In this document: piece by piece, positions 17,246 through 40,851 of the stretch
Numbering within the stretch: position 1 is the first letter of the stretch
Layout of the letters: each line of letters begins with the position of its first letter
Assembly: GCF_004135345.1 (NCBI RefSeq)
Contig: NZ_CP035495.1
Span: forward strand, 1,116,001 to 1,180,000
DNA length: 64,000 nt
Direction of reading: 5' to 3'
DNA from: Xylanimonas allomyrinae
GTDB lineage: Bacteria; Actinomycetota; Actinomycetes; Actinomycetales; Cellulomonadaceae
Position numbers and translations under genes: made by a program
The notes under the pieces: model-generated
The model's database searches: none
What the model was told of the DNA's origin: nothing
The model's input: only the letters and a program-made list of their open reading frames with translations

Positions 17246-19569
17246 CTACGCCACGGGCAGGTGCGGTTCCCCCGCCGCCTTCGCGCCCGTGATGCGGTAG
17301 ACGTCGAACACGCCGTCGACCTTGCGCACCGCGGCGAGCACCTGCTGCAGGTGCGCCGGCTCGGCCATCTCGAACACGTACCGCGACATCGCGATGCGGT
17401 CCTGGGTCGTGGAGACCGTCGCGGACAGGATGTTGACGTGGTTGTCGGACAGCACGCGAGTGATGTCCGACAGCAGCCGGGACCTGTCGAGCGCCTCGAC
17501 CTGGATCTGCACCAGGAAGGTCGTGCTCGCGCCGGTCGTCCACGACACGTCCACGATCCGCTCGGGCTGGGAGCGCAGCCCCTCGACGTTCGCGCAGTCC
17601 GCACGGTGGACGGACACGCCCGCGCCGCGCGTCACGAACCCGATGATGTCGTCACCCGGGACGGGCGTACAACACTTGGCCAGCTTGACCCAGATGTCGC
17701 CGACGCCCTTGACGACGATGCCCGGGTCGCCGCCGCGCGTGCGGCGCGGCGTGGTCGGCACGCCCGGCACGGCGGCCTCGGCCGTGTCCTCCTCCGTGCC
17801 GTCGGCACCCCCAGCGACTTGACCAGCAGCTCGACGACGTGGGGGGCCGAGACGTGCCCCTCGCCGACGGCCGCGTACAGGGCCGAGACGTCCGCGAACC
17901 GCAGCTCGGTCGCCAGCCCCACGAGCGCCTCGTGCGACAGCAGCCGCTGGATCGGCAGGTTCTGCTTGCGCATCGCCTTGGTGATGGCGTCGCGCCCCTG
18001 CTCGATGGCCTCCTCGCGCCGCTCCTTGGTGAACCAGGCGCGGATCTTGTTGCGAGCCCGGGCCGACTTGACGAACGCCAGCCAGTCGCGGCTCGGGCCC
18101 GACGACTCGGCCTTGGACGTGAGGATGTCGACGACGTCGCCGTTCTGCAGCTGCGAGTCGAGCGGCACGAGCCTGCCGTTGACGCGCGCTCCCATGGTGC
18201 GGTGGCCCACCTCGGTGTGCACCGAGTAGGCGAAGTCGACCGGCGTCGCCCCCGCCGGCAGCCCCATGACCTCGCCCTTCGGGGTGAAGACGTAGACCTC
18301 CGCGCCGCCGATCTCGTAGCGCAGCGAGTCGAGGAACTCGCTCGGGTCGGCCGTCTCCCGCTGCCAGTCCACGAGCTGGCGCAGCCACGCCATGTCGTTG
18401 GTGCGCGGGTCGTCCCCCGGTGTCGCGCCGGAGCGCCCACCGCGCGCCGTCTCCTTGTACTTCCAGTGCGCCGCGACGCCGTACTCGGCCCGCCGGTGCA
18501 TGTCGTGCGTGCGGATCTGGATCTCCACGGGCTTGCCGCCCGGACCCACGACCGTCGTGTGGAGCGACTGGTACAGGTTGAACTTGGGCATCGCGATGTA
18601 GTCCTTGAACCGGCCAGGGACCGGGTTCCAGCGCGCGTGCAGCGCGCCCAGCGCCGCGTAGCAGTCGCGCACCGTGTCCACCAGGACGCGCGTGCCCACC
18701 AGGTCGTAGATCTCCGCGAAGTCGTGCCCGCGCACGATCATCTTCTGGTAGATCGAGTAGTAGTGCTTGGGCCGCCCCGTCACGGTCGCCTTGATCTTCG
18801 CGGTGCGCAGATCGGCCTGGACCTGCTCACGCACCACCGACAGGTACTCCTCGCGCGCCGGGGCCCGCTCGGCCACCAGGTGCACGATCTCGTCGTACAC
18901 CTTGGGGTACAGGGCCTGGAAGGACAGGTCCTCCAGCTCCCACTTGATGGTGTTCATCCCGAGCCGGTGGGCCAGCGGCGCGTAGATCTCCAGCGTCTCG
19001 CGCGCCTTGCGCTCGGCCGACGACGAGGGGACGTACTTCCAGGTGCGGGCGTTGTGCAGCCGGTCGGCGAGCTTGATCACCAGCACCCGGATGTCCTTGG
19101 CCATCGCCACGACCATCTTGCGCACCGTCTCGGCCTGCGCCGCCGCTCCGTACGTGACCTTGTCGAGCTTGGTGACGCCGTCGACCATGAGCGCGACGTC
19201 GTCACCGAACTCGGCACGCAGCCGGTCCAGCGAGTAGTCGGTGTCCTCGACGGTGTCGTGCAGCAGGGCCGCCGCGATCGTGGTGCCCTCGAACCCGAGC
19301 TCGGCGAGGATGGTCGAGACGGCGACCGGGTGCGTGATGTAGGGGTCGCCGCTCTTGCGGACCTGGCCGCGGTGCGCCTCCTCCGCGACGGTGTAGGCAC
19401 GCTCGATCACAGACAGGTCCGACTTGGGGTGCGCCGCGCGCACGGCCTGCAGCAACGGTTCCAGCGCGGGGCTGACGCCGCTGCCACCGCCCCGCACGCC
19501 GAGCCGCACCAGACGGTTGCGCACCCGCACACCGGTTCCGGGCGTGGCGGTGAAGTTCTCGTCGTTCAT
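17246..19569 (-). pseudogene. relA: RelA/SpoT-type (p)ppGpp synthetase/hydrolase with a one-base frameshift
   Basis: Bifunctional stringent-response enzyme: HD hydrolase domain ([13 protein letters not shown]), synthetase domain ([16 protein letters not shown]), TGS domain ([10 protein letters not shown]), a zinc-finger-like CCTPVPGD and a C-terminal ACT domain. The frame running from ATG 19569 (ribosome site GGAGGCG) breaks inside LLVKSLGG at the C-run 17808-17812, GGGGG on the coding strand. Adding one G restores an uninterrupted 774-residue protein of normal length. As read, the protein would lose its zinc-finger-like and ACT regulatory part and end at 17632. Because two other core genes show the same defect, an artefact is more likely than real loss. 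Confidence 0.9.
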
Positions 19570-19602
19570 GCGCGCCTCCGTCCGCCGGTGAGAGGCGCCA
19601 GT

Positions 19603-20196
19603 CTACGACGTGGGCCGACCCCCCACGCGCAGCAGCGTCTCGACCGCCGTGCCCGCCAGCCGCGCACGGCCCCCGAGCCCGTCGAGCTCCATGAGGAACG
19701 CCGCCGCGACCACGTGGCCGCCGCACCGCTCCACCAGCTCGACCGCCGCAGCCGCCGTCCCGCCCGTCGCGAGCACGTCGTCCACCACCAGAACACGCGC
19801 ACCCGCCCGTATCGTTCCCGACCGCAGCTCCAGGGCCGCCGAGCCGTACTCGAGGTCGTAGGAGACGCGATCGACCGGCGGCGGCAGCTTGCCCGCCTTG
19901 CGCAGCGGGACGAACCCGACACCCAGGCGCATCGCGAGCGGCGCCCCGAGCAGGAAGCCTCGCGCCTCCATGCCAGCGACGACGTCGACCCCGTGCCCGT
20001 CGTCCCCTTCGCACAGGCGGGCGAACGCCTCCACGACGTCAGCCAGCGCGGGCCCGTCGGCCAGCAGGGGCGTGATGTCGCGGAAGACGATCGGCTCGTG
20101 CGGGTAGCCCGGGACGTCGCGGATCAGCGACCGGATCTCCGTCGCCCTCTGCGGCCCCAGGCCGCGGAGGGCGACGAGCGAGATGTCGTCCGTCAT
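19603..20196 (-). CDS. apt: Adenine phosphoribosyltransferase (197 aa)
   Basis: Salvages adenine to AMP using PRPP. The type I phosphoribosyltransferase PRPP loop VLVVDDVLATGGTAAAAVEL is at about residues 135-154, with the apt-like FRDITPLLADGPA segment (about 37-49) and GFLLGAPLAMRLGVGFVPLRKAGKLP upstream. The start ATG 20196 overlaps the secF stop (ATGA). apt between secDF and relA is a standard actinobacterial order. The N-terminal extension of about 20 residues is usual for the group. Confidence 0.93.
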   Translation of the reverse strand: MTDDISLVALRGLGPQRATEIRSLIRDVPGYPHEPIVFRDITPLLADGPALADVVEAFARLCEGDDGHGVDVVAGMEARGFLLGAPLAMRLGVGFVPLRKAGKLPPPVDRVSYDLEYGSAALELRSGTIRAGARVLVVDDVLATGGTAAAAVELVERCGGHVVAAAFLMELDGLGGRARLAGTAVETLLRVGGRPTS

Positions 20197-21275
20197 CGAC
20201 GCTTGCGCCGCGGCTGCGCCGCCTGGCCCAGGTGCTGGCCCGGGGCGAGCTGGAGGACGCCTGCCTCGACGGGCACGTCGCCCCCGGCGGCGGCCCCGGC
20301 ACGGGCCGCGAGAACCTTCGCCGTGTGCGCCTTGATCTTCGGCTCACGCTCGCGCAACGCCACGTCGAGCGGCGTCGCCAGGAACAGCGAGGAGGCGGCG
20401 CCGACCGCGATGCCGACGAACAGCGACAGCGACAGGTCGCGCAGCGTGCCTGCGCCCAGCAGCAGCGCCCCGACGAACAGGATGCCGCCCACGGGCAGCA
20501 GCGCCACGACAGAGGTGTTGATCGAGCGGACCAGCGTCTGGTTGACGGCGAGGTTCGCGCGCTCGGCGTAGGTCGTGCGGGTCTGGTCGAGCACGCCGTC
20601 GGCGTTCTCGCGGACCTTGTCGAACACGACCATCTTGTCGTAGAGCGAGAAGCCCAGGATCGTCAGGAACCCGATGATCGTCGACGGCGTGACCTCCCAG
20701 CCGACCAGCGCGTACACGCCGGCGGAGATGAGCAGGTCGGCGAGCATCGAGACGATCGCGGCCAGGGACATGCGCCAGGCGCGGAAGTAGATCGCCATGA
20801 ACGCGGCCGCCGCGAGGACGAAGACGACGACGCCCCACAGGGCGCGGGTCGAGACGCCCTGCCCCCACGTCGGACCCACCGACGACACCGTGACGTCGGT
20901 CGCCGGGTCGATGCCGTACGCCTCCGCGAGACGCGCCGAGATGTCGGCGACCTGCTCGGGCTCGAGCTTCTGCGTCTGGATCCGCAGCGCGCTGCTGCCC
21001 ACCGACGCGACACGCGGCTCGTCACCCGGCACCACGGCCTGCACAGCCGCGATCGCCGGGCCCTGGTCGGTGCTGGTGGTGTTCTCGACGGAGATCTCCG
21101 TGCCGCCGCGGAAGTCGATGCCCAGCGACAGGCCCTTGAACCCGAGGATCGCGATCGAGGCGATCGCGAGCGCCGCGGCGACGGCGAACCACCGCTTGCG
21201 CTTGGCGACGATCGCGTAGGAACGGTGGCCCGTGTAGAGGTCGTTGCCCCAGGCGGCAAAGCTGAAACCGGCCAT
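20193..21275 (-). CDS. secF: Protein translocase subunit SecF (360 aa)
   Basis: With SecD it uses the proton-motive force to complete protein export. A first membrane helix, a periplasmic P1-like domain opened by GIDFRGGTEI, then five helices with the SecF motif LGFSLYDKMVVFDKVREN. The C-terminal tail beyond residue about 320 is cytoplasmic and basic (QPRRKRR). ATG 21275 follows the secD stop with a one-base gap, and the stop overlaps apt. Confidence 0.95.
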   Translation of the reverse strand: MAGFSFAAWGNDLYTGHRSYAIVAKRKRWFAVAAALAIASIAILGFKGLSLGIDFRGGTEISVENTTSTDQGPAIAAVQAVVPGDEPRVASVGSSALRIQTQKLEPEQVADISARLAEAYGIDPATDVTVSSVGPTWGQGVSTRALWGVVVFVLAAAAFMAIYFRAWRMSLAAIVSMLADLLISAGVYALVGWEVTPSTIIGFLTILGFSLYDKMVVFDKVRENADGVLDQTRTTYAERANLAVNQTLVRSINTSVVALLPVGGILFVGALLLGAGTLRDLSLSLFVGIAVGAASSLFLATPLDVALREREPKIKAHTAKVLAARAGAAAGGDVPVEAGVLQLAPGQHLGQAAQPRRKRR

Positions 21276-21276
21276 G

Positions 21277-23280
21277 TCAGCGGCCCCCCTCGTTCTCGTC
21301 GATGCCCTCGGCCGCACCGGCCGCGGCCCTGCGCTCGGCGGCACGCCGCTCCGCGATGGTCAGCCGGCGACCCGACTCGTCCGTCGCGGGCGCCGGAAGC
21401 GCCGACGACGACCTGACCGTGGACAGCGCAGGCTCCTCGCGGGGCACTGCTCCCTCGGCCTCGGCGTTCACCTCCGCCGCCGCGGCCTCGGACACCGTCG
21501 CCGGCATCGCGACGCGGCCCGCGCCGGCGTACCGCGGCCTGGCGGCCGAGATCGTCAGGCGCTCCCGGTTCAGGCCCGAGGCGATGTGCCCCTCGCGGAA
21601 GAACCGCAGCTTGGTCAGCAGCTCCATGACGGGGTGGGTGAACCAGACGACCACCATGACGTCGATGATCGTCGTCAGACCGAGCGTGAACGCGAAGCCC
21701 TGGACGCCGCCGACGGCGAGGTAGTAGAGGATGACGGCCGAGATGAGGTTGACGGCCTTGGCCGCGTAGATCGTGCGGCGCGCACGCTCCCAGCCTCGCT
21801 GCACCGCGAAGTGCAGGGTGCGCCCGTTGCGCAGCTCGTCGCGGATACGTTCGAAGTACACGATGAACGAGTCGGCGGTGAAGCCGATCGCCACGATCAT
21901 GCCGGCGACGCCGGGCAGCGATAGGCGGTAGCCCATCCCCCAGCTCAGCAGAGCGATCGTCACGTACGTCATCGCGCCCGCGACGACGAGCGAGGCGACC
22001 GTGAGCAGGCCCAGCGTGCGGTACTGGAACAGCGAGTAGACGACGACGAGCAGCAGGCCGATGAGGCCGGCGATGAGGCCCTTCTCCAGCTGCTCGGAAC
22101 CGAGCGTCGCCGAGATCTCCTGCTGGCTCTGCACGTCGAACTGCAACGGCAGGGCTCCGAAGCTCAGCTGGTTGGCCAGCGTCGCCGCGGTCTCGCTCGT
22201 GAACGAGCCCGAGATCTGCGCCCGGCCGTCCGTGATCGGCTCGTTGATGCCGGGAGCCGACACCACCAGGCCGTCCAGCACGATCGCGAACTGGTTCTGC
22301 GGGTTGCCGTCGCCGAAGGCGAACAGTCGCTGCGAGGTGGCCGCGAACTGCTTCGCGCCCTCGGAGTCGAGCTCGAGCGACACGCCCCAGATGTTGCTCG
22401 TGGTGTTGTTGGGGCCGGGCAGCAGGCCCGACGTCGCGCGCTTGATGTGCGTGCCCTCGACCTCGACGGGCCCGAGGACGTACTTGAGCATGCCGTCCTG
22501 CGAGCACGCCACCAGCGGCGTGGCCGGGTCGTCGCCGCCGCCCCCGCGCAGGTTCTCCGGGTCCGAGCAGTCGAGCTGGTCGAACTGCTCCTGGATCTCC
22601 GGCGTGATCTGCGCCAGGTCGCTCGGGTTGGACGCCGTCGCAGGCGTGTCGTCGGTCGCGGCCGCGTCGGTCGGCGAGTCGGTCGGCGAGTCCGTCGGCG
22701 ATGCCTCGGCTCCGGCGTCCGTCGCCGGGTCGGTCGCGGCGTCCGTGGGCGCGGGAGAGGCGGCCGCGTCGTCCGCGCCTGCACCGGCAGCGGCGTCGTC
22801 GGCCGCCGGCGTGGACTCGTCCGTCGGCGAGGGGGTCTCGGTGGGCGTCGGGACGCCGTAGCTGTAGGTCAGCACCGGCCGGAAACGCATCTGGGCGGCC
22901 TGGCTCACCAGGTCGATCGTCGCCTGCGACGGCTTGCCCGGGATGCCGACGACGATGTTGCGCCCGCCCTGGCTCGTGATCTCCGCCTCGGAGACTCCGT
23001 TGGCGTCGATGCGCTGGCGGATGACGTTGATCGCCTCGGTGACGGTCGCGTCGGTCACCTGCGATCCGTCGGTCGTCGTCGGCGTCAGGATGATCTGCGT
23101 GCCGCCCTCGAGGTCGAGGGCCAGGCCTGGCGTGAGGCTCGCGCCGTCCGGGTTGTCGGTGCTGCGGCCGTCGACGATCGTGCCGGCCACGAGGCCGGCG
23201 AACGGCAGGAGCATCGTCAGGATGGCGAAGATGACGAGCGTACGTACCGGCCGCGAGCGCCGCGTGCTGGAGTTGGCCAA
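21277..23280 (-). CDS. secD: Protein translocase subunit SecD (667 aa)
   Basis: Partner of SecF. The N-terminal helix, the P1 opening GLALDLEGGTQI (about 52-63), six-helix core with GMIVAIGFTADSFIVYFERIRDE and LTTIIDVMVVVWFTHP are all present. Residues about 144-221 are an Ala/Asp/Thr/Pro/Ser-rich insertion (PTDSPTDSPTD) within the exported head domain, and the cytoplasmic tail after residue about 575 is long. The start codon is TTG at 23280, with AGAAG just upstream, giving the family-typical MANSSTRRSRPVR opening. Confidence 0.94.
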   Translation of the reverse strand: MANSSTRRSRPVRTLVIFAILTMLLPFAGLVAGTIVDGRSTDNPDGASLTPGLALDLEGGTQIILTPTTTDGSQVTDATVTEAINVIRQRIDANGVSEAEITSQGGRNIVVGIPGKPSQATIDLVSQAAQMRFRPVLTYSYGVPTPTETPSPTDESTPAADDAAAGAGADDAAASPAPTDAATDPATDAGAEASPTDSPTDSPTDAAATDDTPATASNPSDLAQITPEIQEQFDQLDCSDPENLRGGGGDDPATPLVACSQDGMLKYVLGPVEVEGTHIKRATSGLLPGPNNTTSNIWGVSLELDSEGAKQFAATSQRLFAFGDGNPQNQFAIVLDGLVVSAPGINEPITDGRAQISGSFTSETAATLANQLSFGALPLQFDVQSQQEISATLGSEQLEKGLIAGLIGLLLVVVYSLFQYRTLGLLTVASLVVAGAMTYVTIALLSWGMGYRLSLPGVAGMIVAIGFTADSFIVYFERIRDELRNGRTLHFAVQRGWERARRTIYAAKAVNLISAVILYYLAVGGVQGFAFTLGLTTIIDVMVVVWFTHPVMELLTKLRFFREGHIASGLNRERLTISAARPRYAGAGRVAMPATVSEAAAAEVNAEAEGAVPREEPALSTVRSSSALPAPATDESGRRLTIAERRAAERRAAAGAAEGIDENEGGR

Positions 23281-23330
23281 CTTCTGTCTTCTCTCGTGTG
23301 CGCGCCGCCGGGGTGGTCGGCGCGGGTGAC

Positions 23331-23355
23331 GCCGGCCGGGAGGGACCCGGCCGGC
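23331..23355 (-). terminator. Perfect 10-base hairpin between yajC and secD
   Basis: GCCGGCCGGG (23331-23340) and CCCGGCCGGC (23346-23355) pair perfectly around a 5-base loop, 7 bases past the yajC stop and about 50 bases before secD. It may be a partial terminator or a processing/stability element inside the operon; which one cannot be told. Confidence 0.5.
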
Positions 23356-23362
23356 GCTCGCG

Positions 23363-23770
23363 TCACTTGCCTTCGTCGTCCTTGCGCTGCTGCTCGCGGT
23401 ACTCGCGCTGGGCGGTGTCGAGACCGGAGATGTCGTCAGGCACGTCGATGGCGTCTGCGGGCGCGATCGTACTCGCCTCGGCCGCCTCGATCGTGTCGGC
23501 TGCGTCGTTAGGCGAACTGTCGACGCGTTTTGCGATGGCGGCGCGCAGCCAGATCGAGCGCGAACCGGCGGAGTCGAGGGTGATCCGGTCGTTCGCCTCG
23601 TCGATCTCGACGATGGTGCCGAACAGCCCCGACGCGGTCATGACCTCCTGGCCGGCGGCGAGCTCGTTGCGGAACTCCTGCTGGGCCTTCTGCTGCTTGC
23701 GCTGGCGTGACGACATGAAGAACATCAGGCCGAGCAGCGCCACGATGAGGATGAGGAACGTAGGGTCCAC
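23363..23770 (-). CDS. yajC: Preprotein translocase accessory subunit YajC (135 aa)
   Basis: Small single-span membrane protein that associates with SecDF. One N-terminal helix (about 4-19, FLILIVALLGLMFFMSS), then the RQRKQQKAQQEFRNEL and ASGLFGTIVEIDE motifs of YajC, and an acidic, low-complexity tail. GTG 23770 has AAGGAAG upstream. The tail makes it longer than the E. coli protein but normal for actinobacteria. Confidence 0.93.
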   Translation of the reverse strand: MDPTFLILIVALLGLMFFMSSRQRKQQKAQQEFRNELAAGQEVMTASGLFGTIVEIDEANDRITLDSAGSRSIWLRAAIAKRVDSSPNDAADTIEAAEASTIAPADAIDVPDDISGLDTAQREYREQQRKDDEGK

Positions 23771-23818
23771 GAGGCTTCCTTGCGGTAGGGGGTCCCGCCG
23801 GGTGACGGCGAGGCCGAA

Positions 23819-24946
23819 TCAGTCTATTCGGTCGCCCAACGGCCCGGCGCCCGCCGGGGTTCCCGCATCGTCGCCCGAGTCTTCGAAGAGCGTGCCCGCT
23901 GTCGCCCCGAGCGCGCCCGCCGGGACGGCCAGCCCGAGGTGCTCCCAGGCGAGCGGCGTGGCGACGCGACCGCGCGGCGTGCGGGCCACGAACCCTTCGC
24001 GGACCAGGTAGGGCTCGGCGACCGTCTCGACGGTGTCGGCCTCCTCGCCCACCGTCATCGCGAGCGTGGACAGGCCGACCGGGCCGCCGCCGAAGCGACG
24101 GCACAGCGCGTCGAGCACGGCCCTGTCGAGCCGGTCGAGGCCCACCGGGTCGACCTCGAAGACCTCGAGCGCCGCGTGCGCGGCGGCCAGGTCGAGCCTG
24201 CCGCTGCCGCGCACCTGCGCCCAGTCGCGCACGCGCCGCAGCAGGCGGTTGGCGATGCGGGGCGTGCCGCGCGAGCGGCCGGCGATCTCGTGTGCCGCCG
24301 CGTGCTCCAGGTCGACGCCGAGCAGCCCGGCCGAGCGGACGATGACGCGTTCCAGGTCTGCCGCGTCGTAGAAGTCCAGGTGCCCGGTGAAGCCGAACCT
24401 GTCGCGCAGCGGAGCGGGCAGCAGCCCCGAGCGTGTGGTCGCACCCACGACGGTGAACGGCGGCAGCGCGAGCGGGATCGCGCTCGCCCCCGCCCCCTTG
24501 CCGACGACGACGTCGACGCGGAAGTCCTCCATCGCGACGTACAGCAGCTCCTCGGCCGGGCGGGCGAGGCGGTGGATCTCGTCGATGAAGAGCACCTCGC
24601 CCTCCTCGAGCGAGGACAGCACGGCCGCGAGGTCGCCGGCGTGCTGGATCGCCGGGCCGCTCGTCACGCGCAGGGACGTGCCCAGCTCGCCCGCGATGAT
24701 CATCGCCAGCGTCGTCTTGCCGAGGCCGGGCGGTCCGGAGAGCAGCACGTGGTCGGGTGGGGCGCCGCGCGCGATCGCGGCTTGCAGCACGAGCGAGAGC
24801 TGGTCGCGCACGACCGGCTGGCCGACGAACTCCGCGAGCCGCTTGGGGCGCAGCGCCGCCTCGGCGGCCCGCTCGACGTCGTCGGCCGACGCCGTGACGA
24901 TCCGCTCGCTGGTGAACTGGGGCTCCTCGTAGCGGCCGTCAACCAC
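23819..24946 (-). CDS. ruvB: Holliday junction branch-migration helicase RuvB (375 aa)
   Basis: Hexameric AAA+ motor that drives Holliday junction migration with RuvA. Walker [12 protein letters not shown] (about residues 66-76), Walker B FIDEIHRL, sensor/arginine-finger region [13 protein letters not shown], and a C-terminal winged helix (RTPRGR). The start GTG 24946 ([11 protein letters not shown]) overlaps the ruvA end by 8 bases, so the two are coupled. The C-terminal tail is about 25 residues longer than in E. coli. Confidence 0.96.
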
Positions 24947-25562
24947 GGCGGCCGCCCAGGGAGCGCAGCGTCGCGCGCAGGGTCGCGGCGACGTCGGGCT
25001 CGGCCACCGTCTCGGCGCCGGAGTCCTTCAGGGCGCGGGCGACGGCGTCCTCGGCGACCTTGCTGGGGTAGCCCAGACCGACCAGGGCCTCGACGACCTT
25101 GCCCCGCTGGTCGCCGGCAGCGGCGGGCGAGCCTGCCGTGGCGCCGTTCCCGGCCCCCGTGGGTGCGCCGAGCTTGCCGCCGAGCTCCAGCAGGATGCGC
25201 TGGGCGACCTTCGGCCCGATGCCCGGCACGCGTGTGAGCGCCTTGACGTCCTGGGTGTGCATCGCGGCGCGCACGGCGTCGGGCGTGTGGACCGCGAGGA
25301 TCGCCAGCGCGATGCGCGGGCCGACGCCCGAGACGGACTGCGCGGTCTCGAACACGTCGCGCTCGTCGTCGTCGGCGAACGCGTACAGGGTCATGGACTC
25401 CTCGCGCACCACCATCGTCGTGTAGAGCATGGATGCCTCGCCGATCCGCAGCCGCGCGAGCGTGCCCGGCGTCGCATGAACGAGGTACCCGACCCCTTGG
25501 ACGTTGATCACGGCCCGGTCGAGCGACACGCGCTCCACGATCCCGGTCAGCGACGCGATCAC
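24939..25562 (-). CDS. ruvA: Holliday junction-binding protein RuvA (207 aa)
   Basis: Tetrameric junction-binding protein. N-terminal OB fold ([20 protein letters not shown]), helix-hairpin-helix motifs ([12 protein letters not shown] and [15 protein letters not shown]) and the C-terminal RuvB-contacting three-helix domain ([18 protein letters not shown]) after an Ala/Gly linker. GTG 25562 is strongly supported by AAGGAGGA 6 bases upstream. The 163-base gap to ruvC is non-coding. Confidence 0.96.
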
Positions 25563-25725
25563 CGGCACTCCTCCTTGTCGAACACCCGTACGAGGCCCCA
25601 ACCTACCAATCCTGCGCCGCCTCCCGTCGACGACACCCCCAGGACGGCACCCGGACGCGCGCGACGATGCGCACGCCGCGCGCGAACCGCGCCACCCGCC
25701 GACGGGGAGCCTCCCCGGGGCGGGG

Positions 25726-26313
25726 CTATCTCGGGGCGGGCCGAGCGGCGGGGCGGGGCGCGTGCCGGGCCGCGTGCTCGGCGGCGGCCCACGCACGCTG
25801 GGCCGGGGTGAGCTCGTGGCGGTCGCCGCCCTGGAGTGCGCCGGCGGGGCGCCACAGGTGGGTGATCGCGAGCGCGAGCGCGTCCGCGGCGTCGGCCGGG
25901 CGTGGCGGGTCGGCAAGACCCAGGAGCGTCTGCACCATGCGCTGCACCTGCGCCTTGCCGGCGCGACCCGAGCCGGTGACGGCGGCCTTGACCTCCGACG
26001 GCGTGTGCAGCGCCACCGGGACCCCGCGGCGCGCGGCCGCGACCATCGCCAGCCCCGCCACCTGGGCGGTGCCCATGACGGTGCCGACGTTGTGCTGGGC
26101 GAAGACCCGTTCGACGGCGACCACGTCGGGCACGTGCTCGTCGAGCCAGTCGTCGAGCTCGCGTGCGAGCGTCAGCAGCCGCAGGTCGACGCTCGCGGCC
26201 GGGTCGGAGCGGATGACGCCGACGGCGACGAGCCGCGCCCGCCGCCCGGGCAGGGAGTCGACCACGCCGACGCCGCACCGGGTCAGGCCAGGGTCGACTC
26301 CGAGGACGCGCAC
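25726..26313 (-). CDS. ruvC: Holliday junction resolvase RuvC (195 aa)
   Basis: Metal-dependent endonuclease that cuts Holliday junctions. The four catalytic acids are in place: Asp7 (LGVDPG), Glu68 (VAVERVF), Asp141 and Asp144 ([10 protein letters not shown]). A Pro/Arg/Ala-rich tail extends the C-terminus. The start is GTG 26313, with TAGGGT ending 6 bases upstream and no ribosome site, so this is a leaderless promoter separate from yebC. Confidence 0.95.
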
Positions 26314-26319
26314 GCTGTC

Positions 26320-29340: not shown

Positions 29341-29934
29341 CGGCTGGGCCGGTGCGTCGAGCCCCGCCGGGAGCAGGTCGTCGAGCTCGACGGTCTGCGG
29401 CACGGGCGCCCGGCCGGCCAGGTGCAGCGCCCGGATGTACCAGTGCCGGCGCGCGCGCTGCGCCTGGGCGACCGCCTCGTTGTGGAACCGTCGCGCGAGC
29501 TGCGCGCGGTACCAGCCGGCGCCGAGGTTGGCCACGAGCGCGTCCCCCGCAGGCGTCGAACGCAGGTCCTCGAGCGTCCCGGCGTCGTCGAGGGCCGAGC
29601 GCAGCGTCGCCGACAGGGCGCTCTCCGCGCGCTCGCGCGCCGCGCCGAGGCCGTCCATCGCGAGCGCCTGCCCGGGTTCGGTCACCGGCCCCGCGTCGTC
29701 GACGACGGCGTAGGCGGCGTCGGCCACCAGCACCGCCGAGGCCGGGTCGAGCAGCCCGCACGTCGCCAGGTCGGCGGCGGCACTGGCCCTGCGCACGAGC
29801 TGGGCGTCCAGGGCGATGCGCGAGGCGGCGACCTTGCGGTGCAGGCGGTCCAGGCGCGAGGCCCAGATCCACGCGAGCCACAGCAGCACCCCGAACGTCA
29901 CCAGCACGACGAGGGTGATCTCGGACCAGCTCAT
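29338..29934 (-). CDS. LemA-like membrane-anchored protein of unknown function (198 aa)
   Basis: One N-terminal membrane helix (about 7-25) followed by long helices. LDRLHRKVAASRIALDAQLVRRASAAADLA and the C-terminal RRFHNEAVAQAQRARRHWYIRALHLAGR resemble the LemA layout (a helical domain with an NxAV-type motif), but the match is loose. It overlaps pimA by 4 bases (ATGA at 29931-29934), so it is in the PIM operon; a role at the membrane is likely, the function unknown. Confidence 0.65.
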   Translation of the reverse strand: MSWSEITLVVLVTFGVLLWLAWIWASRLDRLHRKVAASRIALDAQLVRRASAAADLATCGLLDPASAVLVADAAYAVVDDAGPVTEPGQALAMDGLGAARERAESALSATLRSALDDAGTLEDLRSTPAGDALVANLGAGWYRAQLARRFHNEAVAQAQRARRHWYIRALHLAGRAPVPQTVELDDLLPAGLDAPAQP

Positions 29935-31135
29935 CGGTCGCCTCCTTCACCGAGCAGCCGCAGCGCGCGCGACGCCCGCCACGCGGCGTCGGGGCGCACC
30001 GGGATCGCCTCGCCCGCGGCCACGGCCATCTCGTAGACCGCCTCGACCTGGTTGGTCACGCTCGCCCAGTCGAAGTGGCGCACCCAGGTGGTCGCGTGGG
30101 CCCGCCGTGCGGCGGTCGCGGCCGGGTCCTCGAGCGCGTCGCAGACGACGCGTGCGAGGTCGGCCGGGTCCTCCGAGCGGAACACCGCGCCCGCGGCACC
30201 GTCGTCGAGCACCCGGCGGAACGCGCCGAGGTCGCTCGCGACGACGCCCGCACCGGCGCTCATGGCCTCGACCAGCACGATGCCGAAGCTCTCGCCGCCG
30301 GTCTGCGGGGCGATGTACAGGTCGACGGACGCGAGCAGGGCGGCCTTGTCCTCGTCGCTGATGCCACCGAGGAACGTCACGGCCGCGGCGTGCTCCCCGA
30401 GCGCCGCGAGGGCGTCGTCGCGCCCGGCGTCGCCGCGACCAGCGATGAGGAACCGCGCGCCCGGGTGCCGGGCGAGCACCTGCGGGATCGCGGCGGCCAG
30501 CACCATCAGGCCCTTGCGCGGCTCGTCGAGCCGGCCCAGGAACGCGATGGTCGGCGCCTGCGGCGTGCCCTGCCACGCCGGGTTGGGCTCTGCCGCGGCG
30601 AACGTGTCGACGTACACCCCGTTGGGGATGACGACCGCGTCGCCCCCACGTGGTCGATGAGCATGCGCCGCGCGTCCTCCGAGACGGCGATGCGCGCGGC
30701 GATCTTCTCCAGGCTCTGGCGCAGCAGCGGGTAGGCCACCTGGAGGGCGCGCGAACGCACCTGCGCGGTGTGGAACGTGGCGACGACGGGCCCCTCGGCG
30801 ATCCACAGCGCGAGCATGGACAGGCTCGGCGTCATGGGCTCGTGCAGGTGCAGCACGTCGAACCGGCCCGCGTCGACCCAGCGCCGCACGCGGGCCGCGG
30901 CGCGCGGGCCGAACGTCAGCCGCGCGACCGACCCGTTGTAGCGCACCGCCACGGCCTTGCCCGCGGGCACGACGACGTCGGGCACGGGCGTGTCGTCGTC
31001 GGCCGGTGCCAGCACGGAGACCTCGTGGCCGCGCGACTGGAGCGCCTGGGCGAGGTCGCGCACGTGGAACTGGACGCCACCGGGGGCGTCGAAGGAGTAG
31101 GGGCAGACGATGCCCACACGCAGCGGCCGGGTCAT
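29931..31135 (-). pseudogene. pimA: Phosphatidylinositol alpha-mannosyltransferase PimA-like, one-base frameshift
   Basis: GT-B glycosyltransferase (GT4) that adds the first mannose to phosphatidylinositol. The N-terminal half (RVGIVCPYSFDAPGGVQFHVRDLA, HLHEPMTPSLS) is read from ATG 31135; the C-terminal half (AFLGRLDEPRKGL, ETGG-type GGESFGIVLVEAM) is in another frame. The break is in DHVGGDAVVIPNGV at the C-run 30643-30647 (GGGGG on the coding strand); one added G gives an intact 401-residue protein. It overlaps the acyltransferase gene (ATGA) and the LemA-like gene. Sequence error is the likely cause. Confidence 0.88.
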
Positions 31136-32773: not shown

Positions 32774-33372
32774 CAGGAAGGCTCCTCGTCGGGGTCTTCG
32801 GCAGGGGCGGGCCACGCGGCGGCGAGCCGGGCGCGGGTGTCGGCGAGCAGCTCGGGCACGGCCTTGGTGCGGGCCACCACCGGCAGGAAGTTGGCGTCGC
32901 CCTGCCAGCGCGGGACGACGTGCTGGTGCAGGTGCGCGGCGATGCCGGCGCCGGCGACCTCGCCCTGGTTCATGCCCAGGTTGAACCCCGCCGGGTGGTA
33001 GACGGCCGTCAGGACGCGGATCGCCGTCTGCGTCATCGTCGCGACCTCGACGGTCTCGGCGGGCGTCAGGTCGACGTAGGAGGCGACGTGACGGTAGGGC
33101 ACCACCATGAGGTGGCCCGGGTTGTAGGGGTACAGGTTGAGGATCGCGAGGCAGGTCGCCCCGCGTGCGACGACGAGCCGGCGCTCGTCGTCCTCGGGCG
33201 CGACCCCGCAGAACGGGCACGACGACGCGGTGGCGTCCTTCGGCTTGTCCTGTCCCCCGACGTAGACCAGGCGGTGCGGGGTCCACAGCCGCTGCAGGTC
33301 GTCGAGCGGCGGGGGGAACGCCGCGGCCGGCTCGACCGTGGCGCCCCCCTGCGCGTCGTCCGTCACGCTCAC
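32773..33372 (-). CDS. HIT-family nucleotide hydrolase (199 aa)
   Basis: Histidine-triad protein, by family an AP4A/ADP-type phosphohydrolase or phosphorylase; the mycobacterial homologue in this position is an AP4A phosphorylase. The SCPFCGV zinc motif (about 53-59), [17 protein letters not shown] and the triad [10 protein letters not shown] (about 146-155) are intact. The GTG at 33372 overlaps the thrS stop (GTGA). The C-terminal tail is acidic. Confidence 0.9.
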
Positions 33373-35375
33373 ACCTGTGCCCTGTCGCGCACCGCGGCGA
33401 CGATGCGCTCGATCGCCTCGGCGACCGGCACGCCGTTGTCCTGGCGGCCGTCGCGGTAGCGGAAGCTGACCGCGCCCGCCTCGGCGTCCTCGCCGCCGGC
33501 GATGAGCACGAAGGGCACCTTCTCCTTGGCGGCGTTGCGGATCTTCTTGCCGAACCGGTCGTCGGACAGGTCGATCTCGGCCCGGACGCCCAGCGCCGTG
33601 AGCTGGGCGACGACGTCCTTGAGGTAGTCGTCGAACGCCTCGGCGACGGGCACGGCGAGCACCTGCACGGGGGCGAGCCACGCGGGGAAGAGCCCCGCGT
33701 AGTGCTCGATGAGCACGCCCATGAACCGTTCGATCGAGCCGAACTTGGCCGAGTGGATCATGACGGGCTGCTGCTTGGACCCGTCGGGTGCCGTGTACTC
33801 CAGGCCGAAGCGGGCCGGCTGGTTGAAGTCGTACTGCACGGTGCCCATCTGCCAGGTGCGGCCGATCGCGTCCTTGGCCTGGACGGAGATCTTGGGGCCG
33901 TAGAACGCGGCGCCGCCCGGGTCGGCGACCAGGTCGAGGCCGGACTCGACCGCGACCTGCTCCAGGACGGCGGTCGCCTTGGCCCAGTCCTCGTCGGAAC
34001 CGACGAACTTGTCCTTCTTCTTGTCGTCGCGGGTCGACAGCTCGAGGTAGAAGTCGTCGAGGCCGAAGTCCTTGAGCACGCTCAGCATGAAGCCCAGCAG
34101 GTGCTTGACCTCGTCGGGCGCCTGCTCGGGCGTGACGTAGGAGTGCGAGTCGTCCTGGGTCAGGCCGCGCACACGGGTCAGACCCTGCACCACGCCCGAC
34201 TTCTCGTAGCGGTAGACGGTGCCGAACTCGAACAGCCGGATGGGCAGCTCGCGGTAGGAGCGGCCGCGGCTGGAGAAGATCAGGTTGTGCATCGGGCAGT
34301 TCATCGCCTTGAGGCGGTAGTGCCCGTGGTCTCCGACGTCCTCCAGGTCGAGCGCCGGGAACATGGTGTCCCCGTAGTAGGGCAGGTGCCCCGAGGTGTA
34401 GAAGAGCTCTTCCTTGGTGATGTGCGGGGTGCCGACGTAGGAGAAGCCCTCTTCGATGTGGCGCTGGCGGACGTAGTCCTCCATGACCCGCTTGATGACG
34501 CCGCCCTTGGGGTGGAACAGGGGCAGGCCGGAGCCGACCTCGTCGTGGAACGAGAACAGGTCCATCTCGGTGCCGATGCGGCGGTGGTCGCGCCGCTCGG
34601 CCTCGGCCAGGCGCTCGAGGTGGGCCTTGAGCTCGTCCTTGGACGGCCACGCGGTGCCGTAGACGCGCTGCAACGACGCGTTCTTCTGGTCGCCGCGCCA
34701 GTACGCCGCGGCCGAGCGCATGAGCTGCACGCCCTGCCCGATGAGCTTGGTGCTCGGCAGGTGCGGGCCGCGGCACAGGTCCTTCCACACCACGGTCTCG
34801 CTCTCGCGGCCGGCGCCGCGCACGTTGTCGTAGATCGTCAGCTCCGCGCCCCCGACCTCCACGTTCTCGCCGTTGTCGTCGCCCGCGCTCCCCTTGAGGC
34901 CGATGAGCTCGAGCTTGTAGGGCTCGTTCGCGAGCTCGGCGCGCGCCTCGGCCTCGGTGACGACGCGGCGGCGGAACGTCTGGCCCTCGCGGATGATGCG
35001 CGACATCGCCTTGTCGAGCGCCTTGAGGTCCTCGGGGGTGAACGGCGTCGCGACGTCGAAGTCGTAGTAGAAGCCGTCGCGCACCGGCGGGCCGATGCCG
35101 AGCCTGGCGTCGGGGTTGACCTGCTGCACGGCCTGGGCGAGCACGTGGGCCGCGGAGTGGCGCAGCACGTTCAGGCCGTCGGGCTCGTGGACGGTGACGG
35201 GCTCGACGGTGGCGCCCGCGGGCAGCTCCCGGTCGAGGTCCCACAGCTCGCCGTCGACGCGCACGACGACGACGTCCTTGCGGTCGGCGAAGAGCTCGGC
35301 ACCCGTCGTCGGCGTCGTCTCGACCTGCTGCGGGGCTCGGGTTTCGGCGGTCGGTGACTGCGCGGCGTCGGACAC
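33369..35375 (-). CDS. thrS: Threonyl-tRNA synthetase (668 aa)
   Basis: Charges tRNA-Thr and edits mischarged serine. A TGS domain is followed by the editing domain with [11 protein letters not shown], the catalytic domain with the zinc-binding MNCPMHN and motif 2 ([20 protein letters not shown]), and the C-terminal anticodon domain. GTG 35375 is chosen because AAGGAG lies 6 bases upstream and the sequence before it is not conserved in style. The first 25 residues are a low-complexity Ser/Thr/Gln extension. It leads the HIT-pgsA-PIM operon. Confidence 0.96.
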
Positions 35376-35471
35376 GTGCTGCTCCTTCGGTTCACCGGGC
35401 GACGGACGAAGGCCGCCCGCGTGGGTGGTGGATCCCTGCGTGCGGGCGCGGTACGGCCCGGGACGCGTCAA

Positions 35472-35497
35472 GGGGCGCCGCCCTCGGGCGGCGCCCC
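35472..35497 (-). terminator. Strong GC hairpin between the small Rv0909-like gene and thrS
   Basis: GGGGCGCCGCCC (35472-35483) pairs with GGGCGGCGCCCC (35486-35497). It is 74 bases past the stop of the 88-residue gene and 97 bases before thrS. On the minus strand it is followed at once by TTGACG. It most likely ends the upstream transcript. The rest of the 195-base gap 35376-35570 shows nothing else clear. Confidence 0.6.
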
Positions 35498-35570
35498 TCG
35501 ATCGTACCGACGCGACCGGGCTGCGCCGACGCCATCCGGCGCGGTGCGGCGGTGTGGCGCCGTGCGCGGG

Positions 35571-35837
35571 TCAGGCCCCGGCGGGCGGACCGCCGCGGTC
35601 GTTGAGCTGCTGGGCCTTGTCGGCGAGCGCGTCGATCTTGGCGTCGACGGCGTCGGGGGCGACGCTCTTGAGCTTCTCGGCGGCTCGCTCGATGTTCTCG
35701 TCGCTGGCCAGGTCCTTGGCCTTGTCGGCCACGTCCTCCGCGACGTCCTGCACCTTGTCGGCCACGTCCTCGGCGACGTCCTTCACCTTGTCGACCGCGT
35801 TCTCCGCGGCGTCCTTCATCCGGTCGAGAAAGCTCAC
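35571..35837 (-). CDS. Small helical Rv0909/MT0933-like protein, longer copy (88 aa)
   Basis: Lys/Ala/Asp-rich amphipathic helices with an 11-residue periodicity (DKVKDVAEDVA, DKVQDVAEDVA, DKAKDLASDEN). The second half (KDLASDENIERAAEKLKSVAPDAVDAKIDALADKAQ) aligns with the next small protein, so the two are paralogues. The family carries a putative antitoxin label, but no toxin gene is adjacent. The start GTG 35837 is one base behind the neighbour's stop. Function unknown. Confidence 0.72.
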   Translation of the reverse strand: MSFLDRMKDAAENAVDKVKDVAEDVADKVQDVAEDVADKAKDLASDENIERAAEKLKSVAPDAVDAKIDALADKAQQLNDRGGPPAGA

Positions 35838-35838
35838 G

Positions 35839-36030
35839 TCACTCGCCCCCGAAGTCCTTGGCCTTCTGCGCGACCTGGTCGACGATGCCGTCGACGGCGT
35901 CGGGTGCGATGTCCTTGATCTTGTCCGCGACCTTGTCGACGTTCTCGTCCGTCAGGAACGACTTGGCCTTGTCGAGGTTCTCCTCGGAGGCGAGGTCCTT
36001 CGCCTTGTCGAGGAAGTCATCCAGCCCCAT
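35839..36030 (-). CDS. Small Rv0909-family putative antitoxin-like protein (63 aa)
   Basis: MGLDDFLDKAKDLASEEN opens a 63-residue, all-helical, charged protein that fits the MT0933/Rv0909 putative antitoxin family closely (KDIAPDAVDGIVDQVAQKAKDF). ATG 36030 has AAGGAG 7 bases upstream. No RHH or HTH fold is evident and no toxin follows; a stress or surface role is as likely as a toxin-antitoxin role. It forms a two-gene operon with its longer paralogue. Confidence 0.75.
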   Translation of the reverse strand: MGLDDFLDKAKDLASEENLDKAKSFLTDENVDKVADKIKDIAPDAVDGIVDQVAQKAKDFGGE

Positions 36031-36224
36031 GGCTGCTCCTTCTGTCTCGGGGCGCCCGTGACCGCGCCGCCTGTGAGTCACTGCCGATCGCCGGCCGTGC
36101 GGCGAACGTACCTCTCGCCCTTCGCCGCCGCGAGGGCAAGCACGACCCCCCGAACGACACCCGCTGAATCCCGGCCCCCGACGTCCGGGCGATGTCGCTG
36201 TGAGGCACGTCATGTGGCGCGGAC

Positions 36225-36253
36225 TTGCTGTGGTCTGACCACACAGTTAACGT
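36225..36253 (+). promoter_or_regulatory. Sigma-70-type promoter for the small membrane protein gene
   Basis: TTGCTG (36225-36230) and TAACGT (36248-36253) are spaced by exactly 17 bases. The leader would be about 70 bases. The spacer is almost filled by a perfect palindrome. Confidence 0.6.
36229..36243. promoter_or_regulatory. Perfect 15-base palindromic operator between -35 and -10
   Basis: TGTGGTC-T-GACCACA is a perfect inverted repeat containing TGGTCNGACCA, the site type of FadR-subfamily GntR repressors. Its place between -35 and -10 fits repression. Confidence 0.6.
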
Positions 36254-36263
36254 TTCATCTATC

Positions 36264-36274
36264 AGGTCGGACCA
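36264..36274. promoter_or_regulatory. Second FadR-type half-site
   Basis: AGGTCGGACCA contains the palindrome GGTC-G-GACC and matches the upstream site at 10 of 11 core positions if TGGTCNGACCA is taken as consensus. It lies just after the predicted transcription start. Confidence 0.45.
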
Positions 36275-36332
36275 CACCGGCCCGACCGCCACGAGCGCCG
36301 CCACGAGCGGCTCGTCACGAGGGGACACCACC

Positions 36333-36782
36333 ATGAGCACCACCCACAAGCCCGTGCGCATCCTCGGCATCGTCGGCCTCGTCGCCGGCCTGGCCATGAT
36401 CGTCATCGGAGGCGCCACCTGGGGCGTCGTCTCCGCCCAGCTCGACGACCAGCGCATCACCGTCGCTGCGGACGCCTCGTTCATGGCCGGCACCGCCGTC
36501 AACAACCCGCTCTCGGCGTTCGCACAGGCACAGGTCATCGACAAGCACACGCTCGACATCACCGGAGGCAAGACGTTCGCCGAGCTCGACCGCGAGGACC
36601 CGCTGCGCGCCACGGCGCAGCAGGGCGCGTTCCTGCGCGCGTCGCTGTTCACCTCGGTCATCGCCTACGGCGTCGCCGCCCTCGTCATGGGCCTCGGCGT
36701 CCTCGTCGCCGGCAACGGCTACGCCCTGACCCGCATCGCCGCCGGGGCGAAGGTCGCCCAGCCCACGCCGGTCACCGTCTGA
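36333..36782 (+). CDS. Small membrane protein with two transmembrane helices (149 aa)
   Basis: Helix 1 is at about residues 10-30 (ILGIVGLVAGLAMIVIGGATWGVV), an extracytoplasmic loop of about 75 residues holds the conserved-looking MAGTAVNNPLSAFAQAQVIDKHTLDITGGKTFAELD, and helix 2 is at about 108-130. Proteins like this are widespread in actinobacteria and are sometimes labelled aromatic ring-opening dioxygenase LigA, which the sequence does not support. ATG 36333 has AGGGGAC upstream. Function unknown; expression is probably controlled through the TGGTCNGACCA sites. Confidence 0.75.
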   Translation: MSTTHKPVRILGIVGLVAGLAMIVIGGATWGVVSAQLDDQRITVAADASFMAGTAVNNPLSAFAQAQVIDKHTLDITGGKTFAELDREDPLRATAQQGAFLRASLFTSVIAYGVAALVMGLGVLVAGNGYALTRIAAGAKVAQPTPVTV

Positions 36783-36796
36783 CCGCCGCCGCACCG

Positions 36797-36829
36797 AGCG
36801 CCTCGTCCCCCAGCGGGACGGGGCGCTCG
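36797..36829 (+). terminator. Hairpin downstream of the small membrane protein
   Basis: GAGCGCCTCGTCCC (36797-36810) pairs with GGGACGGGGCGCTC (36816-36829) with one G-U, 14 bases past the stop codon. Confidence 0.6.
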
Positions 36830-36850
36830 CGCGTTCGCGCGACACGACCA

Positions 36851-36922
36851 GCGCACACCGCTCGCACCGCTCGCACCGCGCACACCGCGCACACCGCGCA
36901 CACCGCTCGCGCCGCGCACACC
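36851..36922. repeat. Eight 9-base tandem repeats
   Basis: Units are GCGCACACC (five copies), GCTCGCACC (two) and GCTCGCGCC (one), with no spacer. It lies in non-coding DNA between a terminator and the ATPase gene. The unit size allows slippage; no function is visible. Confidence 0.85.
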
Positions 36923-37164
36923 GAGCGACTGCCGCGCATGCCCTTCACGTGGGCCGCGCTCGAACCCGTCGTGGCGCGGGCGCGGCCCGACGCCGCGGCC
37001 GGCACGGGGACGAGCGGCCGAGCAGGCAGATCGGTGCATCGTTGCTGGTCGAACGATCGCATCGCGCCCCGTCGTGCATGTGGTCCGGCCTCGCACATGC
37101 CCTTGCCCCCGGTCGACGGCAGGATGGGCGCGGGGAACACGTCGGATCAACGGGAGGGATGCGC

Positions 37165-39888
37165 ATGGCCGCTCCATGGGCCCAGACGGCAAACGATGTC
37201 CTCGATGGACTCGACGCACGTCTGGAAGGACTGACCACGACGGAGGCCGAGGCTCGCCTGGCGAGCACGGGGCCCAACCGCCTTCCTCTACAACCACGCG
37301 ACCCGTGGTGGAAGAAGCTCGCCGGACATCTCAACGACGTCCTGATCTTCCTGCTGCTCATCGCGGCACTCATCAAGGCCGCGATCGCGATCTACACGGG
37401 CGACGCGTCCAACTGGATCGACGTGTCCGTCATCGCGGCGGTCGCGATCATCAACGTCGCCATCGGCATGATCCAGGAGGGCCGCGCCGAGAAGGCGCTC
37501 GACGCCATCAAGGGCATGCTCTCCTCGCGCGCCCACGTGATGCGTGACGGCACGGTCAGCGACGTCGACGCCGAGACGCTCGTCCCGGGCGACGTCATCA
37601 AGGTGCGTCCCGGCGACCGCGTCCCGGCCGACGCACGCCTGCTGGACGCCTCCAACCTCCAGGTCGAGGAGGCGGCGCTGACCGGCGAGTCCGTCGCGTC
37701 GGTCAAGACGGTCGACGTCGTCGCCGAGAAGGCGAACGTCGGCGACCGCACCTCGATGCTGTTCTCCTCGACGCTCGTGGTCGCCGGGACCGGTACCGCC
37801 GTCGTCACCTCGACCGGCTCGACCACGGAGATCGGCCGCATCCAGACCATGATCTCCGAGGCCGACGAGATGGACACGCCGCTGGCCAAGACCATGGCCG
37901 TGTTCGGCAAGCGCCTCGCCGTCCTCATCCTCGGCATGGCGGCCGTCATGGTCGTCATCGGCCTCGTGCGCGACATCTCCGGGCCCGACCTCGTCTCGGC
38001 GACCATCGGCTTCGCCGTCGCCGCCATCCCCGAGGGCCTGCCCGCGCTCGTCACCATCACCCTCGCGCTGGGCGTGCAGGCCATGGCCCGCCGCAACGCC
38101 ATCAGCCGCAAGATGGCGTCGGTCGAGACGCTCGGCTCGGTCTCGACCATCTGCTCGGACAAGACCGGCACGCTCACGCAGAACGAGATGACCGTGCGCC
38201 ACGTCTCGACGCGCAGCGGCCAGTACGACGTCGAGGGCACCGGGTACGCGCCCGTCGGCCGTGTCGTCACCCAGGACGGCGCCCAGGCGGCGACCGCCGA
38301 CCTCACCGCGGTGGCCGAGGTGATGGCGCTGTGCAACGACGCCCACCTCGAGCAGGACGGCGAGCGGTGGAAGCTCATCGGGGAACCGACCGAGGGCGCC
38401 GTGCTCGTCCTCGGGCGCAAGGCCGGCGTCACCGGCGACGGCTGGGAGCGCGTCGCCGAGCTGCCGTTCGACTCCGCGACCAAGTACATGGCGACGCTGG
38501 CGCAGGACCCCGCCGGGGCGCGGCACGTGCTGGTCAAGGGCGCGCTCGACTCGGTGCGCGCCCGCTGCACCACGCAGCTCGGCCCCGACGGGACCCCCGA
38601 ACCCTTCGACGCCGGCTTCTGGGACGCCGAGATGGCGGCCCTGGCCGGCCAGGGCCTGCGCGTGCTCGCCGCCGCACGCCAGGAGGTGCCCGACACGCTG
38701 GGCGAGCTGCCCGAGGACGGCCCGCGCGGGCTGACGATGGTCGGCATCACCGGCATCGTCGACCCGCCGCGCCCCGAGGCCATCGCGGCCATCGCCGAGG
38801 CCCGCGAGGCAGGCATCGCGGTCGCGATGATCACCGGCGACCACGCCGACACCGCCAAGGCCATCGCCCTGGAGATGGGCATCATCGACTCCCCCGACGC
38901 ACCCACGCTCACCGGGGCCGAGCTCCAGGCGATGTCCGACATGGACCTCGCCGAGGTTGTGCAGTCCGTCCACGTCTACGCACGCACCAGCCCCGAGCAC
39001 AAGATCCGCATCGTGCGCGCGCTGCAGAAGCACGGCGAGGTCGTCGCGATGACCGGTGACGGCGTCAACGACGCCCCCGCGCTCACGCAGGCCGACGTCG
39101 GCGTGGCCATGGGCATCAAGGGCACCGAGGCGACCAAGGAGGCCGCCGACATCGTGCTGGCGGACGACAACTTCGCCACCATCGAGCGCGCGGTGGCCGA
39201 GGGCCGGCGCATCTACGACAACATCCGCAAGGCCGTGCTGTTCATGCTGCCCACCAACGGTGCGCAGTCGCTCGGCCTGCTGTTCGCGGTGCTGCTTGGG
39301 TGGACGGTCATGCCGCTGCTGCCCGTGCAGGTGCTGTGGATCAACATGGTGACCTCCGTGACGCTCGCGCTGCCGCTGGCCACCGAGCCGGCCGAGCCGG
39401 GCGTCATGCGGCGGCCCCCGCGCAACCCGAAGACGCCGCTCATCACGCCCGACTTCCTGCGGCGCATCCTGTTCGTGTCCGTGCTCATCGGCGGCGCCTC
39501 GCTGCTGGTCTTCGCGGCCGAGTTCTACGGGTTCTTCGGGATCGGCGGGCACCGCAACGGCACGCTCGCGCAGTCGGCCGGCCTGACCATGCTCGCGCTC
39601 GGGCAGGTCGCGTACCTGTTCAACTGCCGGTTCATGCACCGCTCGTCGCTGACGGTCGACGTGCTCAAGGGCAACAAGGCCGTGCTGTGGGCGGTGGCCG
39701 CGCTCGTGGCGCTGCACGTGTTCTTCCTCTACACCCCGTTCATGCAGACGCTCTTCCGCGTCACCGGGATCGGGATGCGTGAGTGGCTCATCTGCATCGG
39801 CCTCGCCGTCGTCATCTTCCTGGTGATGGAGCTCGTCAAGGCGATCGACCGCAGGCTGCACCCGGAGACGGCGCAGCAGCGGTCCTGA
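37165..39888 (+). CDS. P-type cation-transporting ATPase, P2 (Ca2+/SERCA-like, CtpF-type) (907 aa)
   Basis: ATP-driven cation pump of the inner membrane. The cation-ATPase N domain, actuator motif ALTGES, the PEGLP helix ([18 protein letters not shown]), phosphorylation site [11 protein letters not shown] with Asp332, KGAL nucleotide-binding segment and the [12 protein letters not shown] hinge are all present, plus six C-terminal helices. PEGLP and overall length place it in the P2 group with Ca2+-type and CtpF-like pumps; the ion is inferred. ATG 37165 is preferred over ATG 37159 because GGGAGGG then lies at correct spacing. Confidence 0.92.
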
Positions 39889-39895
39889 GCACACC

Positions 39896-39928
39896 GGTGC
39901 GGCGTCGGCCTCTGGCCGGCGCCGCACC
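39896..39928. terminator. Bidirectional terminator between the ATPase gene and panB
   Basis: GGTGCGGCGTCGGCC (39896-39910) and GGCCGGCGCCGCACC (39914-39928) form a 15-pair stem (one G-U) with a 3-base loop in the 46-base gap between convergent genes. Confidence 0.75.
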
Positions 39929-39934
39929 GCTCGC

Positions 39935-40851
39935 TCATGCCGGCCGCACGCTCCGGCCGGTGCCGTCTTCGTCCTGCCGCCGCGCAAGCCCTTCGCGCAC
40001 CGCGTCGAGCACGCCGTCGGGCATCGCGTAGCCGTGCTCCGGCCCGGGATAGACGCCCGTGCGGACGTCCCGCGCGTAGGCGGCGACGCCATCGGCCATC
40101 GCGTCCAGCAGCGACGCGTACCGCTTGACGAACTTGGCGGCACGTCCCTCGGTCAGCCCCAGCAGGTCGTGCATGACCAGCACCTGCCCGTCGACGGCGG
40201 GCCCGGCGCCGATGCCGATCGCCGGGATCGTCAGGCGTGGCGTGATCTCGCGCGCGAGGTCGGACGGGATCGCCTCCAGCACCAGCGAGAACGCTCCCGC
40301 CTCCTCGACCGCGAGCGCCTCGCGCAGCACGCGCGCGGCCGCGGCCGCCGTGCGGCCCTGGGCCGCGAACCCGCCGAGTGCCGTGGCCGTCTGCGGCGTG
40401 AGGCCGACGTGACCCATGACGGGGATGCCGGCGTCGGTGATCGCGCGGATGCGCGAGGCCGGCACCCGGCCTCCGCCTTCGAGCTTGACCGCGTCTGCAC
40501 CTGCCTCCTTGACGAACCGGACGGCGGTGGTGACGGCCTGCTCGTCGCTGACCTCGTAGGACCCGAACGGCAGGTCGGCCACGAGGAGCGGAGCCGTGAG
40601 TCCTCGGCGCACGGCCTGGGCGAGCACGAGCATCTCCTCGACGCCGACCGGGACCGTGGAGGGGTATCCCAGCACCACCTGCGCCCCGAGTCGCCGACGA
40701 GCACCAGGTCGACGCCGGCCCGCTCGGCGGCACGCGCCGACGGGTAGTCGTACGCGGTGACCATGACGAGCTTGTCCCCCGCGGCGACCCGGGCCGCCAG
40801 GCTGGGCACCGTGACGCGTGCGCGGGGCGTGTCGCCCGGCCGGGCGCTCAC
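39935..40851 (-). pseudogene. panB: 3-methyl-2-oxobutanoate hydroxymethyltransferase, one-base frameshift
   Basis: First enzyme of pantothenate synthesis (ketopantoate from ketoisovalerate and methylene-tetrahydrofolate). The N-terminus ([27 protein letters not shown]) is in one frame from GTG 40851, and the rest ([37 protein letters not shown]) in another. The switch is at the C-run 40684-40687; one extra G on the coding strand restores [14 protein letters not shown] and a 305-residue protein of normal length. GTG 40851 overlaps the panD stop (GTGA). Artefact is likely. Confidence 0.9.

Follow-up and report, generated by a model that had tools for sequence, protein, structure and literature searches.

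In the passages cited here, bacterial genomes assembled from long reads are described as carrying homopolymer indels that break genes by frameshift, 16S genes included, and an unpolished long-read assembly is reported to contain hundreds of disrupted genes (PMC8306402, PMC12007338). The indels of one of these studies were mostly false deletions, and most deletion errors there followed runs of four to five bases (PMC8306402, PMC12007338). The GeneTack survey, in the part cited, expected sequencing error where a frame switch is present in one genome only and similarity is found on both sides of it (PMC3711429). A paper in which X. allomyrinae is named describes genomes built from nanopore reads with Illumina polishing (PMC13151695).

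Here, we describe three genes of Xylanimonas allomyrinae (G000; 3.85 Mb in two contigs), each of them broken by a frame switch at a short run of G. They lie in the window, by which we mean the whole 64-kb stretch of DNA that was analyzed (C1:1116001-1180000). It is highly probable that the breaks in these genes are consensus artefacts, due to sporadic one-base under-calls at G/C homopolymers, and the living strain almost certainly has intact relA, pimA-type and panB genes. An earlier note on this DNA had proposed homopolymer under-calling rather than decay, a reading supported by the excess of losses, the context of the runs, the comparison with relatives, the presumably essential genes affected and the rRNA copies.

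Interrupted genes in the window

The genes and the runs at which they switch frame are as follows.

17246..19569, minus strand, relA/spoT-type gene, read in two frames with the switch at a G5 run
17808..17812, minus strand, G5 run in relA, one base short in the window compared with relatives
29931..31135, minus strand, GT4 glycosyltransferase gene (pimA-type; the name pimA is that of the earlier reader), read in two frames
30643..30647, minus strand, G5 run in the pimA-type gene, one base short in the window compared with relatives
39935..40851, minus strand, panB, read in two frames, with the start according to the open reading frame (ORF) list
40684..40687, minus strand, G4 run in panB, one base short in the window compared with relatives

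The runs of 5, 5 and 4 G reported in the earlier note were found on the coding (minus) strand at 17812-17808, 30647-30643 and 40687-40684, and the lengths given there for the restored proteins (774, 401 and 305 residues) match arithmetic on the gene ends, given the starts chosen by that reader; for panB, the start is at 40809 in the frame-tracking model and at 40851 in the ORF list. The upstream piece of relA showed 96% identity to the genus relative G002 and matched the RelA/SpoT family TIGR00691, and the downstream piece, with an ACT domain, showed 89% identity to the genus relative G008. In the pimA-type gene, the downstream piece (86% identity to G002) gave generic GT4 matches in NCBIfam, below their cut-offs, and the upstream piece a Glyco_transf_4 match. 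The downstream piece of panB matched TIGR00222 (panB) with 84% identity to G002, while its 50-residue upstream piece matched PF02548.

Such conservation, with the longer piece of each gene 84 to 96% identical to G002, argues against real one-base deletions, that is, against a mutator or decaying strain in which these genes are true pseudogenes, which we regard as very unlikely. Several inactivating changes per gene, the sign of decay that was looked for, were not found in these three genes, each of which has one switch. Actinobacteria rely on NucS, described in the cited part of the source as leaving indels uncorrected, so that slippage at runs could go unrepaired by it (PMC8228993). However, the loss of nucS is described there as raising transitions rather than short indels (PMC8228993), and a search for this domain only gave a NucS_C match without stops in G000, which is among the 10 of the 11 genus genomes that have a match.

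Comparison with relatives

To compare the three sites with other genomes, about 245 nt around each was aligned by blastn to the loci of relatives, counting non-self rows; many rows represent the same genome more than once. The genus set comprised 11 genomes, X. allomyrinae included. At the relA site, all 18 spanning rows were longer than the window by a net one base; these rows come from 8 genus genomes, five of them represented three times over. The same was true for 99 of 99 spanning rows at the pimA-type site, including all 80 named loci, and for 26 of 26 at the panB site, where one further panB row did not span it. The panB rows correspond to 5 genus genomes, three times each, and 11 distant ones, which at 66 to 71% identity and with mixed gaps still showed a net gain of one base. 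The claim that each of the three genes is one base short thus holds in every non-self row that spans its site. Comparison of the relatives' open frames with the window also placed one-base losses at the same three sites. A homology-only frameshift search over all open frames gave many shadow-frame matches, and its candidates near 19597, 23339 and 29332, which fall between gene calls, were discarded because no switch is present there in the frame model.

A frame switch at a run has the right geometry for recoding, in which intact proteins would result from ribosomal frameshifting or from slippage of the polymerase at these G runs. Yet the switches in relA, the pimA-type gene and panB are absent from all the aligned relatives that span the sites, and slippage sites often consist, according to the cited part of the GeneTack survey, of a homopolymer of at least eight bases or of two shorter ones (PMC3711429). 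More than a hundred switches in a third of the genome, and losses of the same type in untranslated rRNA (see below), also speak against recoding, which we consider extremely improbable.

Scale of the losses along the genome

The frame-tracking HMM was trained on codon use and applies a penalty on frame switches. Applied to the window, where 60 gene calls span 59,997 bases, it detected the switches in relA, the pimA-type gene and panB and no others. Its first run had given six, of which those at 817, 20203 and 24953 were dropped as overlaps of neighboring genes according to the ORF list; they were gone when both strands were run forward. The warning in the earlier note that other long G/C runs here may also be short was therefore not borne out in the 59,997 bases of gene calls, to which the test was confined (about 4 kb of the window lies outside them), and where the HMM could mistake a switch with a stop directly behind it for a gene overlap and so miss it.

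We also examined 1.19 Mb more of G000 beyond the window and, as a control, 0.875 Mb of G002, the nearest complete relative, around the matching region. Raw switches in the larger stretches numbered 127 in G000 and 53 in G002 in the first run and 97 and 22 in the second. Counting as internal only those switches more than 30 nt from the gene start and more than 60 nt from the gene end, we found 119 losses and 14 gains in the 1.256 Mb of G000 examined (window included, a third of the genome), the excess of losses that homopolymer consensus error predicts, against 8 losses and 2 gains in the G002 stretch, i.e., about 95 candidates per Mb versus about 9. The 864 kb around the window held 75 internal losses, with a Poisson probability of about 3e-46 at the G002 rate. 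For the 64-kb window, 0.6 losses would be expected at that rate (P for three or more = 0.02) and about 6 at the rate of G000 itself. Extrapolation from this third of the genome gives about 365 one-base losses genome-wide.

Few such losses were found in other members of the genus, which is a further argument against real deletions: internal switches amounted to 2 losses in 76 kb of G008 and 1 gain in 74 kb of G010, and the HMM found none in G005 (60 kb) and G001 (40 kb). In the 80 family loci (1.54 Mb in all), 15 losses and 8 gains were counted. Eight of these losses are in 20.7 kb of a single locus, L101 (Cellulosimicrobium sp. CUA-896), versus seven in the other 79 loci, and its contig is possibly another error-rich assembly.

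The count of losses in G000 holds some real cases. At least two losses among the 119, at C1:754305 and C1:2438418, have one and the same context in two copies of a gene of about 1.2 kb and appear natural. Both copies switch frame about 252 nt into the gene, which is perhaps, at a guess, a transposase with natural frameshifting and no error. On the second contig (32,160 bases), a single gene call some 1.7 kb long contains five switches, at C2:11182-12405, and could be a decayed gene or reflect either unusual codon use or poor coverage.

Candidates were checked by alignment to G002 in the 864 kb, where they amount to 97 (85 losses and 12 gains) when gene ends are included. Thirty-six could be aligned across the site, and 33 of them were losses with a net of -1 modulo 3. 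One clean gap accounts for 29 of these losses, whose other 4 sites show mixed gaps (1053131, 1267717, 1099730 and 739566). The other three of the 36 were one loss with a net of +1, one loss with a net of 0 and the sole gain, with a net of 0 modulo 3. Another 49 had no match in G002 and 12 were not spanned, so that the support for these comes from the model alone. In the reverse test, 5 of the 22 G002 candidates were spanned, with no clean one-base case among them.

Length, letter and strand of the runs

Within 15 nt of the 75 internal losses, the longest G/C run was of 4 bases in 36 cases, 5 in 16, 3 in 20 and 2 in 3. Random coding positions would give 12.2 cases at runs of 4 and 2.9 at runs of 5, and hence 52 of 75 losses were at runs of 4 to 5 versus about 15 expected. 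On the coding strand, the longest run at the 119 losses was of G in 53 cases and of C in another 53, with a tie in 7, and the remaining 6 had a run of another letter or none; G, C or both thus form the longest run at 113 of the sites. Runs of C and of G are hit equally often, with no strand bias, and we take it as chance that all three cases in the window are G runs in minus-strand genes.

Loss rates for true runs of 4, 5 and 6 come to about 0.3%, 2.6% and 9%, although these are rough figures in which each site was taken as a run one base longer and attributed to the nearest run. G/C runs of 5, 6 and 7 number 1591, 184 and 9 per Mb in G000 and 1535, 201 and 6 in G002, and four other genus stretches have 1716 to 1933 runs of 5 and 197 to 417 runs of 6 per Mb. 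A strong depletion of runs of 5 to 7 in G000 was not found against G002 and these four stretches. A mild depletion is possible, and the loss rates above would give a slight one. Under-calling is sporadic, and most runs of 5 to 7 are intact.

Disagreement between copies of the rRNA operon

Repeated copies within the same genome disagree at runs, both in the rRNA operons and in one near-repeat. Three 23S matches are present in G000, and the three operons were aligned with 1.5-kb flanks over 4,837 columns, in which 10 groups of differences were found. Six are clean single-G losses in pure runs of G4 to G6, five in the copy at C1:1710467 and one in that at C1:3066839. Of the remaining four groups, two are substitutions, one is a two-base repeat unit and one is mixed, with a single-G loss included. 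The copy at 1710467 (the 23S gene being C1:1710467-1713568) lacks all three G6 runs present in its sisters, and one of the rRNA losses lies in a 23S stretch that we take to be nearly universal.

This disagreement is the strongest evidence for under-calling and is hard to explain by decay, which would be expected to bring more than the two substitutions that accompany the losses. On the other side, 22 of 32 repeat pairs in G000 were gap-free, although so small an amount of sequence would be expected to hold few errors. Like the rRNA copies, near-identical tandem copies at C1:1228921-1233486 disagree by a single G, here within a G5/G6 run.

Identity of the missing base

The earlier note took the missing base in the three genes to be a G. 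The rRNA copies make this likely, but the protein-coding sites themselves do not show it, because the relatives mostly have the run broken by another base. Opposite the gap at the 32 protein-coding sites that could be placed, G002 has C in 17, G in 6, T in 5 and A in 4. With the runs mostly interrupted in G002, a lost C would explain many of these sites as well, and at any single one of them the interrupting base may be what is missing. An artefact of this other kind, in which the base interrupting a near-run (e.g., a C between G's) is lost, would be a variant of under-calling compatible with it. The C found opposite the gap at 17 of the 32 sites and the codon model, where GGC has about three times the frequency of GGG, would favor it; nevertheless, we consider it unlikely, since the clean rRNA losses are from pure G runs whose longer form is seen in the sister copies.

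Intact in-frame runs of G000 offer a second comparison, as they are pure in G002 in 34% of 1627 runs of 4, 15% of 355 runs of 5 and 7% of 44 runs of 6. At called runs of 3 to 5, G002 has the pure full run at 4 of 30 sites, which is what intact runs show (about 4.7 expected). Both tests, the intact-run comparison and the rRNA operons, favor the loss of a member of the run over that of an interrupting base.

Presumably essential genes among the broken sites

One piece from each of 20 of the 33 aligned sites was searched against NCBIfam, and 19 had a match. The matches include alanine--tRNA ligase, cytidylate kinase/Der, UvrC, AroB, DXS, proteasome alpha, an ATP-hydrolysing topoisomerase subunit A, RelA/SpoT and PanB. 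These genes are expected to be essential. A single alaS match exists in the genome, and it is broken, which speaks against real deletions. The dxs piece also has a single match in the genome, and dxs is among the four sites with mixed gaps. It is scarcely credible that deletions at short runs, both in essential genes and in one of the rRNA operons, are real and that the strain is rescued, for instance, by slippage on short G/C runs.

Sporadic under-calling would instead act at G/C homopolymers with a true length of about 4 to 6 on both strands, and would account for three errors here, one each in relA, the pimA-type gene and panB. The probable cause is insufficient coverage or polishing of a long-read consensus. 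Most likely, this is a recurring, ordinary artefact with no biological meaning. It is nevertheless a warning about quality, as losses of the extrapolated number would split genes or mimic pseudogenes, and claims of gene loss for the species should therefore not rest on this assembly. Such errors can be checked for at little cost, and without reads, by comparing the rRNA copies of a single assembly.

Comparison with published error patterns

G000 resembles the under-polished long-read assemblies described in the cited passages in that its indels lie in homopolymers, its genes are frameshifted and its rRNA is affected (PMC8306402, PMC12007338). It differs from the 59% GC genome described in PMC12007338, where A/T runs were commoner, in that G/C runs dominate (113 of 119). 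Like the GeneTack singletons (PMC3711429), the switches of G000 are found in one genome only and have protein similarity on both sides; unlike them, about 95 candidates per Mb are concentrated in this one genome.
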